Source: Myxococcota bacterium
GTDB lineage: Bacteria; Myxococcota_A; UBA796; JAJRTE01
Direction: 5' to 3'
Assembly (NCBI GenBank): GCA_024278455.1
Contig: JAJRTE010000306.1
Span: forward strand, 1-64,000
DNA: 64,000 bases
Part shown: one piece after another, positions 553 to 6,708 of the stretch
Numbering within the stretch: the stretch's first letter is position 1
Layout: each line of letters starts with the position of its first letter
Notes under the pieces: generated by a model
Told to the model about the DNA's origin: nothing
Seen by the model: only the letters and a program-made list of their open reading frames with translations
Database searches by the model: none
Position numbers and translations under genes: made by a program

Positions 553-2655
553 CTACTCCAACAGCGCCAGGTCCGCCACGTGGCCCGCCGACTGCAAGGT
601 CGAGAAGAACGTTTCGGCGTCCGGCCCGAACCCGTCGAAATCGAAGAGTCCGGTCGCCGAGAGGGCGTCGTCGAAGGACTTCTGGCGCGCGTAGCCCGCC
701 TGGTCGGGCGCCATGAAGCGCGACTTCAGGTAGAGGAGCTGTCGCCGGTTGCCCTGCGCGTGATCGTAGAAGTGGATTCGCCGGGTTCTCATGTCGATCT
801 TGACACGCTCCCGCAGCCAGGGAAGGCGCGTCTCGAACGCTTCGTAGAACAAGAGCGTCAGCTTGCCGGACCGGAGATGGATCTTGACGAGGTCGGCCTC
901 GCGGACATCGCCGTACAGGACGCTTGCGCAGCCGGCGTAGCACCGCAGCACGGGTGGAAGGCGTTCCAGCAGCGCCAGGTGCAGTTGGAGGGAATGCCCG
1001 CGATCCAGCCACCCCAGCCCCTGCGCCGCCGCCCGTTCCGCGGCTTCCGTAACGACCTCGGGACGGCCGACAGAAAACAGCAGGGTCCGCGCCTCCTCTT
1101 GGGCCTGCCGAAGGGAGCCGAAGAACGCCCGGACATCCCGTTTCAGCTCCGGGGGAAGCGCCTGGTAGCGCGTTCGGCCTCCGAAGAGGTTGAGCGCGAA
1201 ATAGACCAGCAGGTCGTCGCGGCGCGCTCGGGCCGCCGCACGCAACGGGTCCATGTCGAACAGGCCGCGAACGAGCCGATCGGCACGGCGCAGCGACCCC
1301 ACCCGCTCGCGCAGCGCATGGCGGAGAGAATCGTCCAGCTCCTCCTCGGCCACGGGACGTCCTCTCGCAAGCCACGCCTCCCACAGCGTCTCGAGCAACG
1401 GCCGCACCGCCTCGAGGTCCCGGGCTGGAACCTCCACCCTGCCCCGCCCAGGTGGCCGGTGCGTCGTCGGTACGAGCTGGAACCGCCTCTGCTGGCGCTC
1501 GAGCAGGAAACGCTGTTCCAGGACTTTGTCCCGAAAAACCAGGAACACACCCGGCCCCACGGCGATGGCGTCCGCGGACAGCACGGTCTCGATGAAGTCT
1601 CGGAGTTCCTCCTGGCGGTAGTATTTCTGGAACGTTCCCCGCCGCGTCAAGAAGCCGTCCCCGTAGGGCTCGAGGCCGGACGTGTCCGCCTTTCCGACCG
1701 CCATGCAGGCGACCGCCAGGCAGCCGCGCGCGAGGTCGAACGCGCGCCGGAGTGCCTCCCGCCTCTCCTCCCGGGACTCGATGACGTTGAGAACGAAGCC
1801 CAGGTTCACGACATCCGCCGGCTCGAGGGGCGTATCGGGTGCAAAGTGCGGGTCCCACCCGATGGCCGGGATCCCCGCTTCCAGAAGGGCGCGCACGTCG
1901 TCACCCTGGCCGCAGCCATAGTCCAGGACGGACCGCTTCGGGTCGAGAAGCCCATACCGCGCGAGGGCCTGCATGGGCACGGACAGCCTGTCCCGCACGA
2001 TGGCCGTGCGATGGCGCGCCACCCCCCGCTCGCCCTCGATGCCCCCCGTCGCTCCCGGGGCTGACGGCTCTTGTGCGACTGCCGGCTCCTCCTCCGCCGG
2101 CTCTCCTTCGACTGTTTGCGGCTTCGGGGTCGACTGGACGGGTGACGAGGCTCGGGTAGTGCCCGAAAGCCCCTCGAGTTCTCTCAACGCGTGATCGTCC
2201 ACCACCACGCCCGCCGCTTCGAGACGGGCAGCCCAGCTTCGCCGGTGTCCGATGGCTCGAGGGTTCTCGAACAGCCCACGCGCCTCGAGGGCACGGGTCA
2301 GCGCCTCGAACCGGGGCCGGTCCGGGTGGTCGAGCGGGAGCAACAGCTCTTTCCGGTGCAGGATCGGGGGATTCCCGGACGTGCGGAATCGGCGACGGGT
2401 CACCCGACCCACGTCCAGGTCCACGGTGACGCTTTCCAGCAAGGCGGGGAAAGCCACCTCTTGGAAGGGTTCGTAGTCGAGCAAGGTGACGCGGTGCGTG
2501 CGAGCGGTGTCCAGCCGCACCACGTTCCACTGAATGTCCCCGGCGAGGGACACGGCCTGGTCGAGCCGTGCCCGATCCGGGGGCTCGAGCACCTCGAGGG
2601 CGTCCCGGTGGAGATACCAGGCGCCGTGAACCCGCTTTCCGACCTTCTGGATCAC
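553..2655 (-). CDS. DNA phosphorothioation-associated putative methyltransferase (TIGR04096-like)
   Basis: N-terminal KVGKRVHGAWYLHRDAL, central SAM-binding VLDYGCGQGDDVRALL; GTG start at 2655 inferred from MIQKVGKRV; the ORF track extends artefactually to 2838. Confidence 0.75.
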   Translation of the reverse strand: MIQKVGKRVHGAWYLHRDALEVLEPPDRARLDQAVSLAGDIQWNVVRLDTARTHRVTLLDYEPFQEVAFPALLESVTVDLDVGRVTRRRFRTSGNPPILHRKELLLPLDHPDRPRFEALTRALEARGLFENPRAIGHRRSWAARLEAAGVVVDDHALRELEGLSGTTRASSPVQSTPKPQTVEGEPAEEEPAVAQEPSAPGATGGIEGERGVARHRTAIVRDRLSVPMQALARYGLLDPKRSVLDYGCGQGDDVRALLEAGIPAIGWDPHFAPDTPLEPADVVNLGFVLNVIESREERREALRRAFDLARGCLAVACMAVGKADTSGLEPYGDGFLTRRGTFQKYYRQEELRDFIETVLSADAIAVGPGVFLVFRDKVLEQRFLLERQQRRFQLVPTTHRPPGRGRVEVPARDLEAVRPLLETLWEAWLARGRPVAEEELDDSLRHALRERVGSLRRADRLVRGLFDMDPLRAAARARRDDLLVYFALNLFGGRTRYQALPPELKRDVRAFFGSLRQAQEEARTLLFSVGRPEVVTEAAERAAAQGLGWLDRGHSLQLHLALLERLPPVLRCYAGCASVLYGDVREADLVKIHLRSGKLTLLFYEAFETRLPWLRERVKIDMRTRRIHFYDHAQGNRRQLLYLKSRFMAPDQAGYARQKSFDDALSATGLFDFDGFGPDAETFFSTLQSAGHVADLALLE

Positions 2656-2725
2656 CTGGATCGCCTCCCTGGAATCGCTGTGCCTGCCCGGGCAGGGTCT
2701 CATCTCTCCAGGATGCCACGATGGC
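2596..2725. repeat. Copy A of ~130-bp imperfect direct repeat flanking TA module
   Basis: Aligns by eye with 3495-3624, about 5 mismatches in 130 bp; offset 899 bp. Confidence 0.9.
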
Positions 2726-2794
2726 GCTGCCCTGTAGAAGATTTCCGCGGTACCCACCGACCGAACCCGTGCATTGCAGCGCAATGTCGGCCGA

Positions 2795-3127
2795 CTACTT
2801 CTTTCTGAAGAGTCTTTCCAGAAGAATATCCTCCACATTCCTTCTTGAATCGATAATGGCCAACACGTAGACAGTCTCTTCCGATACTCGGTACATGACT
2901 CGCCAGGGTGGGACGATCAGTTCGCGGTATGTCAGAATACCTTGCTGTTGCAACTCGGGAATGCGACGACCGCGCTGAGGAGAGTGGCTGAGGGTCTCTA
3001 TCTTGGTCTTGATCTGTTCAAAAAGCCTTTGGGCCGCAAGTGGGCTGTCTTGCGCGATGTAGTCAATGATGTCTTCAAGATCATCAACAGCGGACCTTGC
3101 CCATCTAACTTGATAGTCTTGATTCAT
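2795..3127 (-). CDS. RelE/ParE-family toxin
   Basis: MNQDYQVRWARSAVDDLEDIIDYIAQDSPLAAQRLFEQIKTKI...PWRVMYRVSEETVYVLAIIDSRRN; typical size, paired with antitoxin. Confidence 0.9.
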   Translation of the reverse strand: MNQDYQVRWARSAVDDLEDIIDYIAQDSPLAAQRLFEQIKTKIETLSHSPQRGRRIPELQQQGILTYRELIVPPWRVMYRVSEETVYVLAIIDSRRNVEDILLERLFRKK

Positions 3128-3130
3128 GTC

Positions 3131-3400
3131 TCATTCAAGTTTTTCTTGGATTGTCTTCAAGACATCCTCATGCGATACGGTTTCACCGTTCCTGGTTTCT
3201 TCTTCAGCCAGCGAAAGGATCTTCAACAATCCGATGGCATTTCTCATCCTTTCGTAGCTCTCTGGATCCTGCAAGACAGCCCGGGCTTCACCGTTTTGCG
3301 TGATGATGACAGGAGAATGGGTTTCGTTGATCTGCCTCAACAAGTCGGCAGTTCTCGACTTCAAGTAGCTCACGGACCTGATGTTCGTGGACAGGTTCAT
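3131..3400 (-). CDS. Phd/YefM-family antitoxin
   Basis: VSYLKSRTADLLRQINETHSPVIITQNGEARAVLQDPESYERM; immediately upstream of toxin. Confidence 0.9.
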   Translation of the reverse strand: MNLSTNIRSVSYLKSRTADLLRQINETHSPVIITQNGEARAVLQDPESYERMRNAIGLLKILSLAEEETRNGETVSHEDVLKTIQEKLE

Positions 3401-3494
3401 TGTTCACCTCCAGTCTTTTTATGGTACCAAATTCAGGCTGGAAGTCAACACCTATTCCAAGGCCAACTCGGTGTTGTGGCCAGGATTCCTCCTT

Positions 3495-3624
3495 GAGGGC
3501 GTCCCGGTGGAGATACCAGGCGCCATGAACCCGCTTCCCGACCTTCTGGATCACCTGGATCGCCTCCCTGGAATCGCTGTGCCTACCCGGGCAGGGTCTA
3601 ATCTTTCCAGGATGCCACGATGGC
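3495..3624. repeat. Copy B of ~130-bp imperfect direct repeat flanking TA module
   Basis: Contains the end of the FtsK-like gene and a duplicated start of the methyltransferase gene. Confidence 0.9.
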
Positions 3625-6600
3625 TTCGGCCAACTCCCGGGTCTCGTCGGGCCCCGCGAAGGGAACCTGTCCCAGGACGATTTCTCCCTCGCCCACGAGC
3701 TTGGCCGCCAGGTGGCCCTTGCCCAGGAGCCTCGAGGCCACGGGGTCGTCCAGCACCAGCTCGGAGTTGCGCCGGTCCGACACCCTCAGCACCAGGCGAT
3801 TGCCCAGGTTCGCCCGGATCAACGGCGGGACGGCGTCCTTGTCGGGGCGCTGGGTGACCAGCACCAGGCTGATGCCTGCGGCCCGCGCCTTGGATGCCAG
3901 CCGCGTCACGGTCTTCTCCACCGTGGCCCGATAGTCCCTGTCCACCATCCAGTCGGCCATCTCGTCGTGGAACAGCCAGAGCATTGGGAACCGGTTCTCC
4001 CGTGCTACGCGCTTGTTGTACTGGAAGATGTTGAGGGCTCCCACACTTGCGAGCAACCGGTAGCGCTCCTCCATCGCCTCGATCACGGCATCGAAGCTTT
4101 TCATCGCGCCGGCCTGTGTCGTGCAGATGTCCCCTTCGAGGTGCGGCAGGTCCTGCAACCAGGGGTAGTCCACACCGGCCTTGGGGTCGATCATCCAAAT
4201 CCGTGCCGCACCGGGCGCGTTCGTCGCGCAAATGTCGAGCAGGAGATTCTGCACCAGGACCCCCTTGCCGCTCCCGGTCTCGCCGGCGATGAGGACGTGG
4301 GGGCCGTGCTGGGGCTGGCCCCCGAACTCGCTTGCGATGTTGAGATAGAACAGCTCACCATCGTTCTCTCGAGCCCCGAGCAGGAAGGAGGTGTTGAACC
4401 ACGGCGCGGTCTCCGGCAAGGCCCGTTTGCGCCATTGGTCATGCAGCCAGAGCACGACCCGCTTCGGGCGCCGGACCATGACCACCACCTCGCCCGGGCG
4501 CCCGTGTACATCGATGACCTCGAGGGCATGGGAGGTAAGGAGTTGCTGCTGCCTCTTCTCCACCCTGGACACGGTTAGATCGTCGGTTCCCCTGAAGCTG
4601 ACGAGCGCGGCGTTGGGGGTCAGGCGCGCCCGGACGACCTCGGATGTCATGGCGTAGCTCCGGAAGGCCTTGCACAGGGCGACAAGCGTTTCTTGCAGCC
4701 ACGTTTCCCCTTCTTCCTCCCGTATCTTCTCCCGGCCGCTGCTCAGCCACTTCCGAATCGGGGCCGGATAGGGCGGAACGTGCTCGGGCTCCCGGGTCTC
4801 ACGACCCCGGTTCATGGGTCTTCGCCCTGTAGTCGCTTCGTGGGCACTCGTGGTTGTGTCGTCCCTCTGTCGAGATTGCCAGGACAGGGTGGATGGGCCT
4901 GCGTCGCCGGAGTCAGCGGTCACCGGGCTGTTTGGCTGAGCAGGTCGCCACGTCGTGCCCTGGATTCTGGGCTGCCCCAGCATGGCGTGGGCTTCACACC
5001 CGTCGGGCACGGGCTTCTGTGGTCTTCGTCGCTCCAGGTACGAGGGGGAGGACGGCAGGCGGATCTGCTCGGTCGGCACCGCGTCCGGATCGGCGCTGGA
5101 CCTCTTGCCAGCACCGGTCGCGGTTCTGCTCGGCTCTCGCTTTCCGGATTGCGAAGGGGGCTCTCCGTTCCAAACAACGGTACCCGAAGATCTGCTTTCC
5201 ACGCCGACCTCGATGCGCCGTCGATGGAGGGAAGTGCGAGCCGGTCGCCCCGTACTTGAGGGCTTCATGGCCTTGAACCCGGGTGCGCCTTCGCCCCCCT
5301 CTTGTCGTTTTGGCTGCGAAGGCGGTTCGTCGTGCCACGTCACGGGACTCGAGGCGGCTGGTTGTCCAGGCACCTCGTTGCGCTGCCGACGGACAGGGAC
5401 GTTGGCCGGTCGATCCAAGGCCGAGTCCGTCGTGAGCCTCGGTGCCGACTCCCCTTTCGGAACGACCGGGTCACGGTCTGGGCTGGCAGGAGCCGCGCGC
5501 GTCCGGTCCGTGGACCGAAGCGCAGACCGCGAGATCATCTCCCGGTCAGCGGCGGCCGGCGGTGGAAGCTTCCGGACTCGAGTCAACAGGCGGCGGAGCG
5601 TGTCGGCGTCGAAGACTTGCTGCAAGCAAGGGATCCCGCTGGTCTTGAGGGGGAGGGGCTCCTTGCTTACGCTGTGGGATCCATCATGAACGAAGACATG
5701 GGAGAGGCCAACAAGCTGAACGGGAACCTGGTCGTCCTTCACGGCCTTGACCCACCCGTACAGGGCCATGCCCCCCAGCGGGGCGTCCTCGAAGGGGTCC
5801 ATCCCCTCGGCCATGAGGTCGCCGAGACGATCTAGCCAGACCGTCCGGTCGAGCCGGGTGCTCGAGGGCTCCAGCGCCGTGGCCAGCCGGCCGATGGTCT
5901 CGACGAGCTGCCTGGCCGACTTGCGCGCCGCCTCGAGGTATCCACTCTCCGAGACGAACTTGCTTTCGGTCACCAGCACATTGAGGTAGGGCTGTCCATC
6001 CTCGTCCACGGCAGGATTGAGGACCAGGAGGTCGGCCAATCGGCCCTCCTTGGTCCCGAACCAGCTCGCGTAGTCGTCGAGAAAGTACCAGCCGATGTGC
6101 CGGTCGTTCTTCGCGGCGAGGTGACGCCGAACGAGAGCCATCGAGAGCACGACACCTACCAGTTCGTTGGCGAAATGCGCGTATTTGGCCGCCCGCATCA
6201 CGATCTGGCCCGACAGGTTGGTGGCCTGCTCGATGAGCCACTCGGCCAGCGCTGAGCGCTCCTCGCCGTCCTGGTGTGGGATCAGACGAGACAACAGTGC
6301 CTCGAGGAAGCTGAGGAGAAGCTTCGGGTCGCGGTTTGTCGAGACCACGAGATTCCGGGGCTCGTGCCGATGGCTCACGTACCGGATGACGCGCACGCCG
6401 TGGTTGCGATACAGCCGTCGGTCCACGAGAGGATCGGATGTCACCACCCAGTCACCAATCCGGTGCGCGGTCTCCAGCACCTTGCCGAGCCCAGTCTGCC
6501 CGAACGATGCACGCCGCACGGGTATCCACGTTTTCTCCTCGAGGGTGCGGCCGGTGTGCAACAGCATGAGCGTGTCCAGGTACACCTGCCCGGTGGGGTC

Positions 6601-6708
6601 CTGTACGGGTGAAGCCAGGTAGGCTTCCACGCGCTCGTCGCCGGGAGCTACAGGGGAACGGCGTCCTCTTTGCCAATAACCAGTGAGACACATTTCGAGC
6701 CTCCACAA
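3598..6708 (-). CDS. FtsK/HerA-type ATPase with N-terminal putative PD-(D/E)XK nuclease-like region; DNA modification/restriction associated (DptH-like)
   Basis: GETGSGKG Walker A, MLWLFHDEMADWM, ISLVLVTQRPDKDAVPPLIRANLGNRLVLRV (FtsK C-terminal core); N-terminal ADLLVLNP...LNVLVTESKFV compatible with PD-(D/E)XK; ends ...IVASWKD* 55 nt before the copy-B GTG. Confidence 0.75.
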   Translation of the reverse strand: MWRLEMCLTGYWQRGRRSPVAPGDERVEAYLASPVQDPTGQVYLDTLMLLHTGRTLEEKTWIPVRRASFGQTGLGKVLETAHRIGDWVVTSDPLVDRRLYRNHGVRVIRYVSHRHEPRNLVVSTNRDPKLLLSFLEALLSRLIPHQDGEERSALAEWLIEQATNLSGQIVMRAAKYAHFANELVGVVLSMALVRRHLAAKNDRHIGWYFLDDYASWFGTKEGRLADLLVLNPAVDEDGQPYLNVLVTESKFVSESGYLEAARKSARQLVETIGRLATALEPSSTRLDRTVWLDRLGDLMAEGMDPFEDAPLGGMALYGWVKAVKDDQVPVQLVGLSHVFVHDGSHSVSKEPLPLKTSGIPCLQQVFDADTLRRLLTRVRKLPPPAAADREMISRSALRSTDRTRAAPASPDRDPVVPKGESAPRLTTDSALDRPANVPVRRQRNEVPGQPAASSPVTWHDEPPSQPKRQEGGEGAPGFKAMKPSSTGRPARTSLHRRRIEVGVESRSSGTVVWNGEPPSQSGKREPSRTATGAGKRSSADPDAVPTEQIRLPSSPSYLERRRPQKPVPDGCEAHAMLGQPRIQGTTWRPAQPNSPVTADSGDAGPSTLSWQSRQRDDTTTSAHEATTGRRPMNRGRETREPEHVPPYPAPIRKWLSSGREKIREEEGETWLQETLVALCKAFRSYAMTSEVVRARLTPNAALVSFRGTDDLTVSRVEKRQQQLLTSHALEVIDVHGRPGEVVVMVRRPKRVVLWLHDQWRKRALPETAPWFNTSFLLGARENDGELFYLNIASEFGGQPQHGPHVLIAGETGSGKGVLVQNLLLDICATNAPGAARIWMIDPKAGVDYPWLQDLPHLEGDICTTQAGAMKSFDAVIEAMEERYRLLASVGALNIFQYNKRVARENRFPMLWLFHDEMADWMVDRDYRATVEKTVTRLASKARAAGISLVLVTQRPDKDAVPPLIRANLGNRLVLRVSDRRNSELVLDDPVASRLLGKGHLAAKLVGEGEIVLGQVPFAGPDETRELAEAIVASWKD

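Follow-up and report, generated by a model that had tools for sequence, protein, structure and literature searches.

A small toxin–antitoxin (TA) module of the Phd/YefM-ParE type has probably inserted at the junction between an sspH-like gene and a methyltransferase gene in the Myxococcota genome considered here, with approximately 130 bp of the target duplicated in the process, that is, by insertion with long target duplication (LTD). As far as the sequence of the window (the whole stretch of 64,000 nucleotides analysed) can tell, the LTD footprint is apparent in the unique flanking repeats, the position of the module at the gene junction, the foreign G+C content of the insert and its predicted own promoter, and it appears further supported by an orthologous operon whose gene order lacks the TA, as well as by a parallel case with an empty site elsewhere; the same lines of evidence support the first-pass annotation in its proposal of a TA insertion at a gene junction.

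The two repeat copies, A (2596-2725) and B (3495-3624), had been estimated to match at some 125 of 130 positions, and the exact count in an ungapped comparison, at an offset of 899, is indeed 125/130; at this offset the matches span 2592 to 2725 (128/134), and the identity of the 130-bp repeats breaks off abruptly at both edges. The 130-bp sequence is present in two copies only in the whole 7.03-Mb assembly (BLAST), and a sequence search returned a single occurrence of the insert between them (2726-3494). When 834,982 bases of the genome (60 contigs plus the window, 12%) were scanned for direct-repeat pairs of 60–400 bp with at least 85% identity, a gap of at least 300 bp and a spacing of up to 5 kb, this pair was the sole one recovered, and it is therefore far above chance and not part of the background. 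A dispersed repeat family was rejected as an explanation, since the 130-bp sequence forms a single pair, unlike the ~300-bp repeats of locus L065 or the palindromic elements of L031. In L065 (2015-7546, genome G041), the repeats recur every ~1 kb between TA and other small genes, and a related element is found in G026 (L084); in L016, two different RelE-type toxin genes are each followed by a 64-bp repeat (1548-1611 and 3455-3518, 94%) that has an inverted-repeat core and may be a mobile element resembling a terminator.

Read along the minus strand, the FtsK-like gene is followed in turn by copy B, the antitoxin, the toxin, copy A and the methyltransferase. Each repeat comprises the final 27 nt of the FtsK-like gene, 43 nt of spacer and the methyltransferase start up to codon 20, so that the reading frames agree with the earlier statement that each copy spans the end of the FtsK-like gene and the GTG start of the methyltransferase. 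Copy B holds the functional FtsK-like/SspH end, with its stop codon kept (...SWKD and stop, 3598), the spacer and a redundant methyltransferase start, which diverges after 20 codons from the GTG; copy A holds a redundant FtsK-like/SspH end, reading ...SWRDE with the stop codon lost, the spacer and the intact, functional methyltransferase start (GTG at 2655). These assignments are those already given for both copies in the first-pass annotation, which had also described the repeats as self-repairing. Since the duplicated segment spans both gene ends, each gene keeps one good end, and no repair function is needed; the geometry of the duplication suffices. The related claim that the module had entered without breaking either gene is accurate for the two ends, which survive, but the FtsK-like gene was probably already shortened.

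Of the five differences between A and B, the FtsK tail accounts for two, the spacer for one and the methyltransferase start for the remaining two. Both differences in the tail of copy A, a K-to-R change and the loss of the stop, fall in the redundant part and would fit the decay of a superfluous end after duplication, while those in the methyltransferase start, both synonymous, do not help to decide. Alternatively, homologous recombination may have delivered TA-bearing DNA, circular or linear, together with a diverged copy of the junction from a related strain, through a single crossover in the junction, and the repeat differences would then reflect donor–recipient divergence. This origin, already favoured in the first-pass annotation, is possible and not required, and we regard it as unlikely: the synonymous differences in the methyltransferase start are such as occur between two selected homologues, but the donor would have to have acquired an insertion at this junction beforehand, which leaves the first event unexplained, and the stop loss of copy A would not show in a functional donor junction at the time of arrival. 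The five differences are too few to separate decay from recombination between diverged loci.

The insert (2726-3494, 769 bp), whose bounds are set where the repeat identity ends, has a G+C content of ~50% versus 65% for the window, and its gene content is limited to the two TA genes, both on the minus strand. The antitoxin (3131-3400, 89 aa) is of the Phd/YefM family (Pfam PhdYeFM_antitox, 2e-15; NCBIfam phd_fam over cut-off), and the toxin (2795-3127, 110 aa) has a ParE/RelE fold (Pfam ParE_toxin, 4e-20; NCBIfam RelE_StbE over cut-off), with the PDB ParE chains 5cw7/5czf as its nearest solved structures (1e-6); the two proteins exceed the curated cut-offs of PF02604, PF05016, TIGR01552 and TIGR02385. 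The pair had been named Phd/RelE, of which the Phd half holds, whereas the best match of the toxin is to Pfam ParE_toxin, the NCBIfam RelE/StbE model also being above cut-off. Adjoining the antitoxin gene, a promoter/operator is predicted at 3401-3450 on the minus strand, with the arrangement TTGACT-16-TACCAT (hexamers 3448-3421); it sits within an imperfect palindrome of 50 bp with GGTACC at its centre, which is likely the operator. Conservation of this stretch extends over ~45 bp in the TA homologue L016 and over most of the inner part in L019. The insert thus reads as little more than a self-sufficient TA with a predicted promoter of its own.

No transposase, integrase or recombinase was found among the reading frames of the insert, nor any inverted repeat joining its two ends, and a composite transposon or insertion sequence was rejected for want of a transposase or suitable inverted repeats there. 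Site-specific integration, in which the TA would be a cassette of the integron-like or integrase-driven kind with the repeats as its attachment sites, is a very improbable source of the structure. TA genes are frequent integron cargo, a related toxin lies in the array of L241 (genome G181) among attC-like repeats, and in several cases the repeat is taken from the 3′ end of a gene, a feature shared with tyrosine integrases; the window repeat, however, spans two genes, is unique in the genome and lacks the attC-like motifs of L241, and the insert has no recombinase. An integron cassette in particular was discarded because the window repeat is host coding and spacer sequence without the attC cores RYYYAAC and GTTRRRY, unlike L241, and an integrase-driven island at a gene 3′ end because the repeat continues 103 nt beyond the stop, as far as the following gene, and the insert encodes no recombinase. 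The L241 locus (253-2116) is itself an integron-like array with four attC-like repeats (GCCTAAC...GTTAGGC), in which a RelE-type TA forms one cassette. Tandem duplication of the TA was likewise rejected for the window; it holds for L076 (4936-6264), where the toxin end occurs as a tandem duplication (277 bp, 91%) with a second antitoxin gene of the Phd type in between.

Of the two host genes, the putative methyltransferase (553-2655, minus strand) is intact, belongs to TIGR04096 (dnd_rel_methyl; NCBIfam 6e-173, over cut-off) and shares 47% identity with a protein of Azospirillum TSA2s p3. The FtsK/HerA-like ATPase (3598-6708, minus strand; Pfam FtsK_SpoIIIE) matches PADLOC SspH (3e-292), a component of the phosphorothioate-linked SspFGH system, and its C-terminal ~830 residues align only to ~943-1768 of the 1771-aa Azospirillum SspH; the earlier label of FtsK-like is therefore right as a family match, with the correction that the gene is a 5′-truncated sspH without its first ~940 residues. 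For the gene that adjoins Azospirillum sspH upstream, no relative was found in the window, and since SspH is also truncated, the phosphorothioate-linked defence operon of the host looks like a remnant. The FtsK-like gene was probably damaged before the TA inserted.

In plasmid p3 of Azospirillum sp. TSA2s, the orthologues of sspH and of the methyltransferase gene are direct neighbours, separated by 14 nt and without a TA, and for this reason the TA-free junction is likely the ancestral state. The window genome is the one genome of its own family, and in 57 relatives from its class no close match to the insert or to the methyltransferase was found. The only class relative with a comparable methyltransferase, G033, was rejected as an empty site: as assigned by eye, a DndD-like ATPase gene lies two genes upstream, and an FtsK-like neighbour could not be recognised. 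One may also suppose that the 130-bp junction had been tandemly duplicated long before, and that the TA inserted between the copies later, as an unrelated event. The end product would look identical, and short tandem duplications are common; we nevertheless consider this sequence of events improbable, and distinctly so, given that two independent events are needed, the second exactly at the duplication boundary, that no TA-free tandem junction was seen, and that the same geometry recurs at other TA loci.

In L051 (genome G066), a Phd-ParE TA is bracketed by two 103-bp repeats of an OmpA-like gene's 3′ end (90% identical), and a third copy stems from a later tandem duplication that also took in a remnant of the TA leader. 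The sister species G067, at 89% nucleotide identity, has the OmpA-like end in a single copy, which abuts the neighbour gene directly, and no TA. This pair is the clearest empty-site case for a TA with an LTD footprint. The TA-adjacent copy of L051 differs from the resident gene end at 10 of 103 positions and the sister species differ at 7-9 of 103, a similarity of values that speaks for the recombination alternative. In L228 (genome G334), the start of a gene is repeated over 144 bp on either side of a TA and a lipoprotein-like gene, and this repeat has no further copy in G334; in its congener G140, the two flanks lie within 359 bp of each other and the insert is clearly absent, the duplicated segment being too diverged for a copy count. 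The flanks of 24 retrieved homologues of the window toxin were also searched for repeats. A 76-bp flanking repeat of 98.7% identity in L043, and a TA following the end of a sigma-54 regulator gene in the homologue L019 (Nitrospirales), with a degenerate 89-bp copy (75%) of that end after the toxin, probably show the same duplication pattern, and L091 and L244 are further LTD candidates.

The occurrence of similar structures with TA-free sister sites in independent genomes also bears on an assembly artefact, in which two metagenome strain variants of the junction would have been joined around a foreign TA fragment. The genome is incomplete and fragmented (315 contigs, contamination 3.9%) and assemblers err at repeats, but the copies differ at 5 positions and the frames on both sides are kept, and together with the independent genomes these observations make an artefact highly improbable.

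Arrays with the pattern are also seen in Lokiarchaeota, where copies of the 3′ end of trpG (TIGR00566), 59-170 bp long, are interspersed with TA pairs and other cassettes downstream of that gene (L035, 3237-6368; L036, 171-2507; L037, 1056-6357). This reuse of trpG ends with shared cassettes is a further point in favour of recombination as an alternative. The arrays differ between genomes. LTD-like repeats also surround cargo other than TA modules, namely in parts of these arrays and in L115; in the latter (5155-5993), 84 bp from the 3′ end of a radical-SAM-like gene are repeated behind a short unknown ORF, the copy lying immediately upstream of a Phd TA.

When the Phd/YefM loci of the window's class were surveyed and compared with random placements, flanking repeats were modestly enriched at TA loci. 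Tight repeat flanks were recorded for 7 of 86 testable TAs, versus 2.3% of random placements (p about 0.0035); under stricter criteria the figures were 4 of 106 and 0.54% (p about 0.003), or 3 of 106 when L076 is left out (p about 0.02, by hand). The enrichment can be called only modest because some of the loci counted are weak or of another kind: L042, L065 and L100 seem to carry other repeats, and L076 is the tandem TA duplication described above.

Under the preferred reading of insertion with target duplication, a TA fragment would have been captured, with no recombinase involved, at a widely staggered or replication-associated break that was filled in on both sides, and the redundant half of each repeat would have started to decay after insertion. 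Recombination between the 130-bp direct repeats should delete the insert; its loss would, however, remove the source of antitoxin and poison the cell, so that addiction would select against the losers, and deletable inserts flanked by repeats would therefore last mainly when their cargo is an addiction module. Such selection against loss implies that repeat-flanked inserts are noticed mainly around addiction modules. The repeats are predicted to drift with age, and the observed range of 75-99% allows for such drift. From the same scheme it is predicted that non-addictive cargo is lost by repeat recombination and that addictive cargo stays.

For small chromosomal TA modules, which move without a transposase of their own, recurrent target duplications of ~100 bp would offer a concrete route of entry, linking TA modules to the behaviour of restriction-modification systems. 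The data are suggestive of TA modules often entering chromosomes by LTD. The broader proposition that these modules, like restriction-modification systems, spread and persist as LTD inserts kept by addiction, with LTD as a general signature in bacteria and archaea, is a tentative one that we hold to be rather doubtful; if true, the trpG-end arrays of Lokiarchaeota would fall under the same addiction-module signature. A literature search, with many subscription papers outside its reach, turned up no description of LTD with a TA module as cargo, and since its coverage is incomplete, this absence is weak evidence of novelty.

Compared with known Phd/YefM-ParE/RelE type II modules, the TA of the window seems in itself nothing unusual, as it has the antitoxin gene first, the toxin gene 3 nt downstream, and its own predicted promoter with a palindromic operator. 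The chromosomal ccdAB of Escherichia coli, which served as a negative control, is likewise a TA insertion in a short spacer, present in some strains and absent in others; it differs from the window in that the spacer between folA and apaH has been replaced and no flanking repeat is found. TA insertions do not all take the LTD form, and many are without flanking repeats. In integron cassettes and CALIN arrays, TA units are also bounded by direct repeats, but these are attC-like sites, as seen in L241, whereas the repeats of the window are ordinary host coding sequence. The closest resemblance in form is to restriction-modification systems, for which insertion with long target duplication was reportedly described by Nobusato et al. 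in 2000. Some of these systems insert with long target duplications of variable length, ~100 bp (PMC3874152, PMC3031569, PMC1643837). Shared by both are a two-gene unit of the addiction type, direct repeats of variable length around 100 bp, and the lack of a transposase and of terminal inverted repeats; the cargo of the window, however, is a type II TA of ~0.7 kb and not a restriction-modification pair. If LTD is defined by its cargo, as the insertion of a restriction-modification gene complex, the Phd/YefM-ParE module falls outside it, and the insertion in the window is for this reason grouped with LTD by its footprint, and not as a member of the restriction-modification series.
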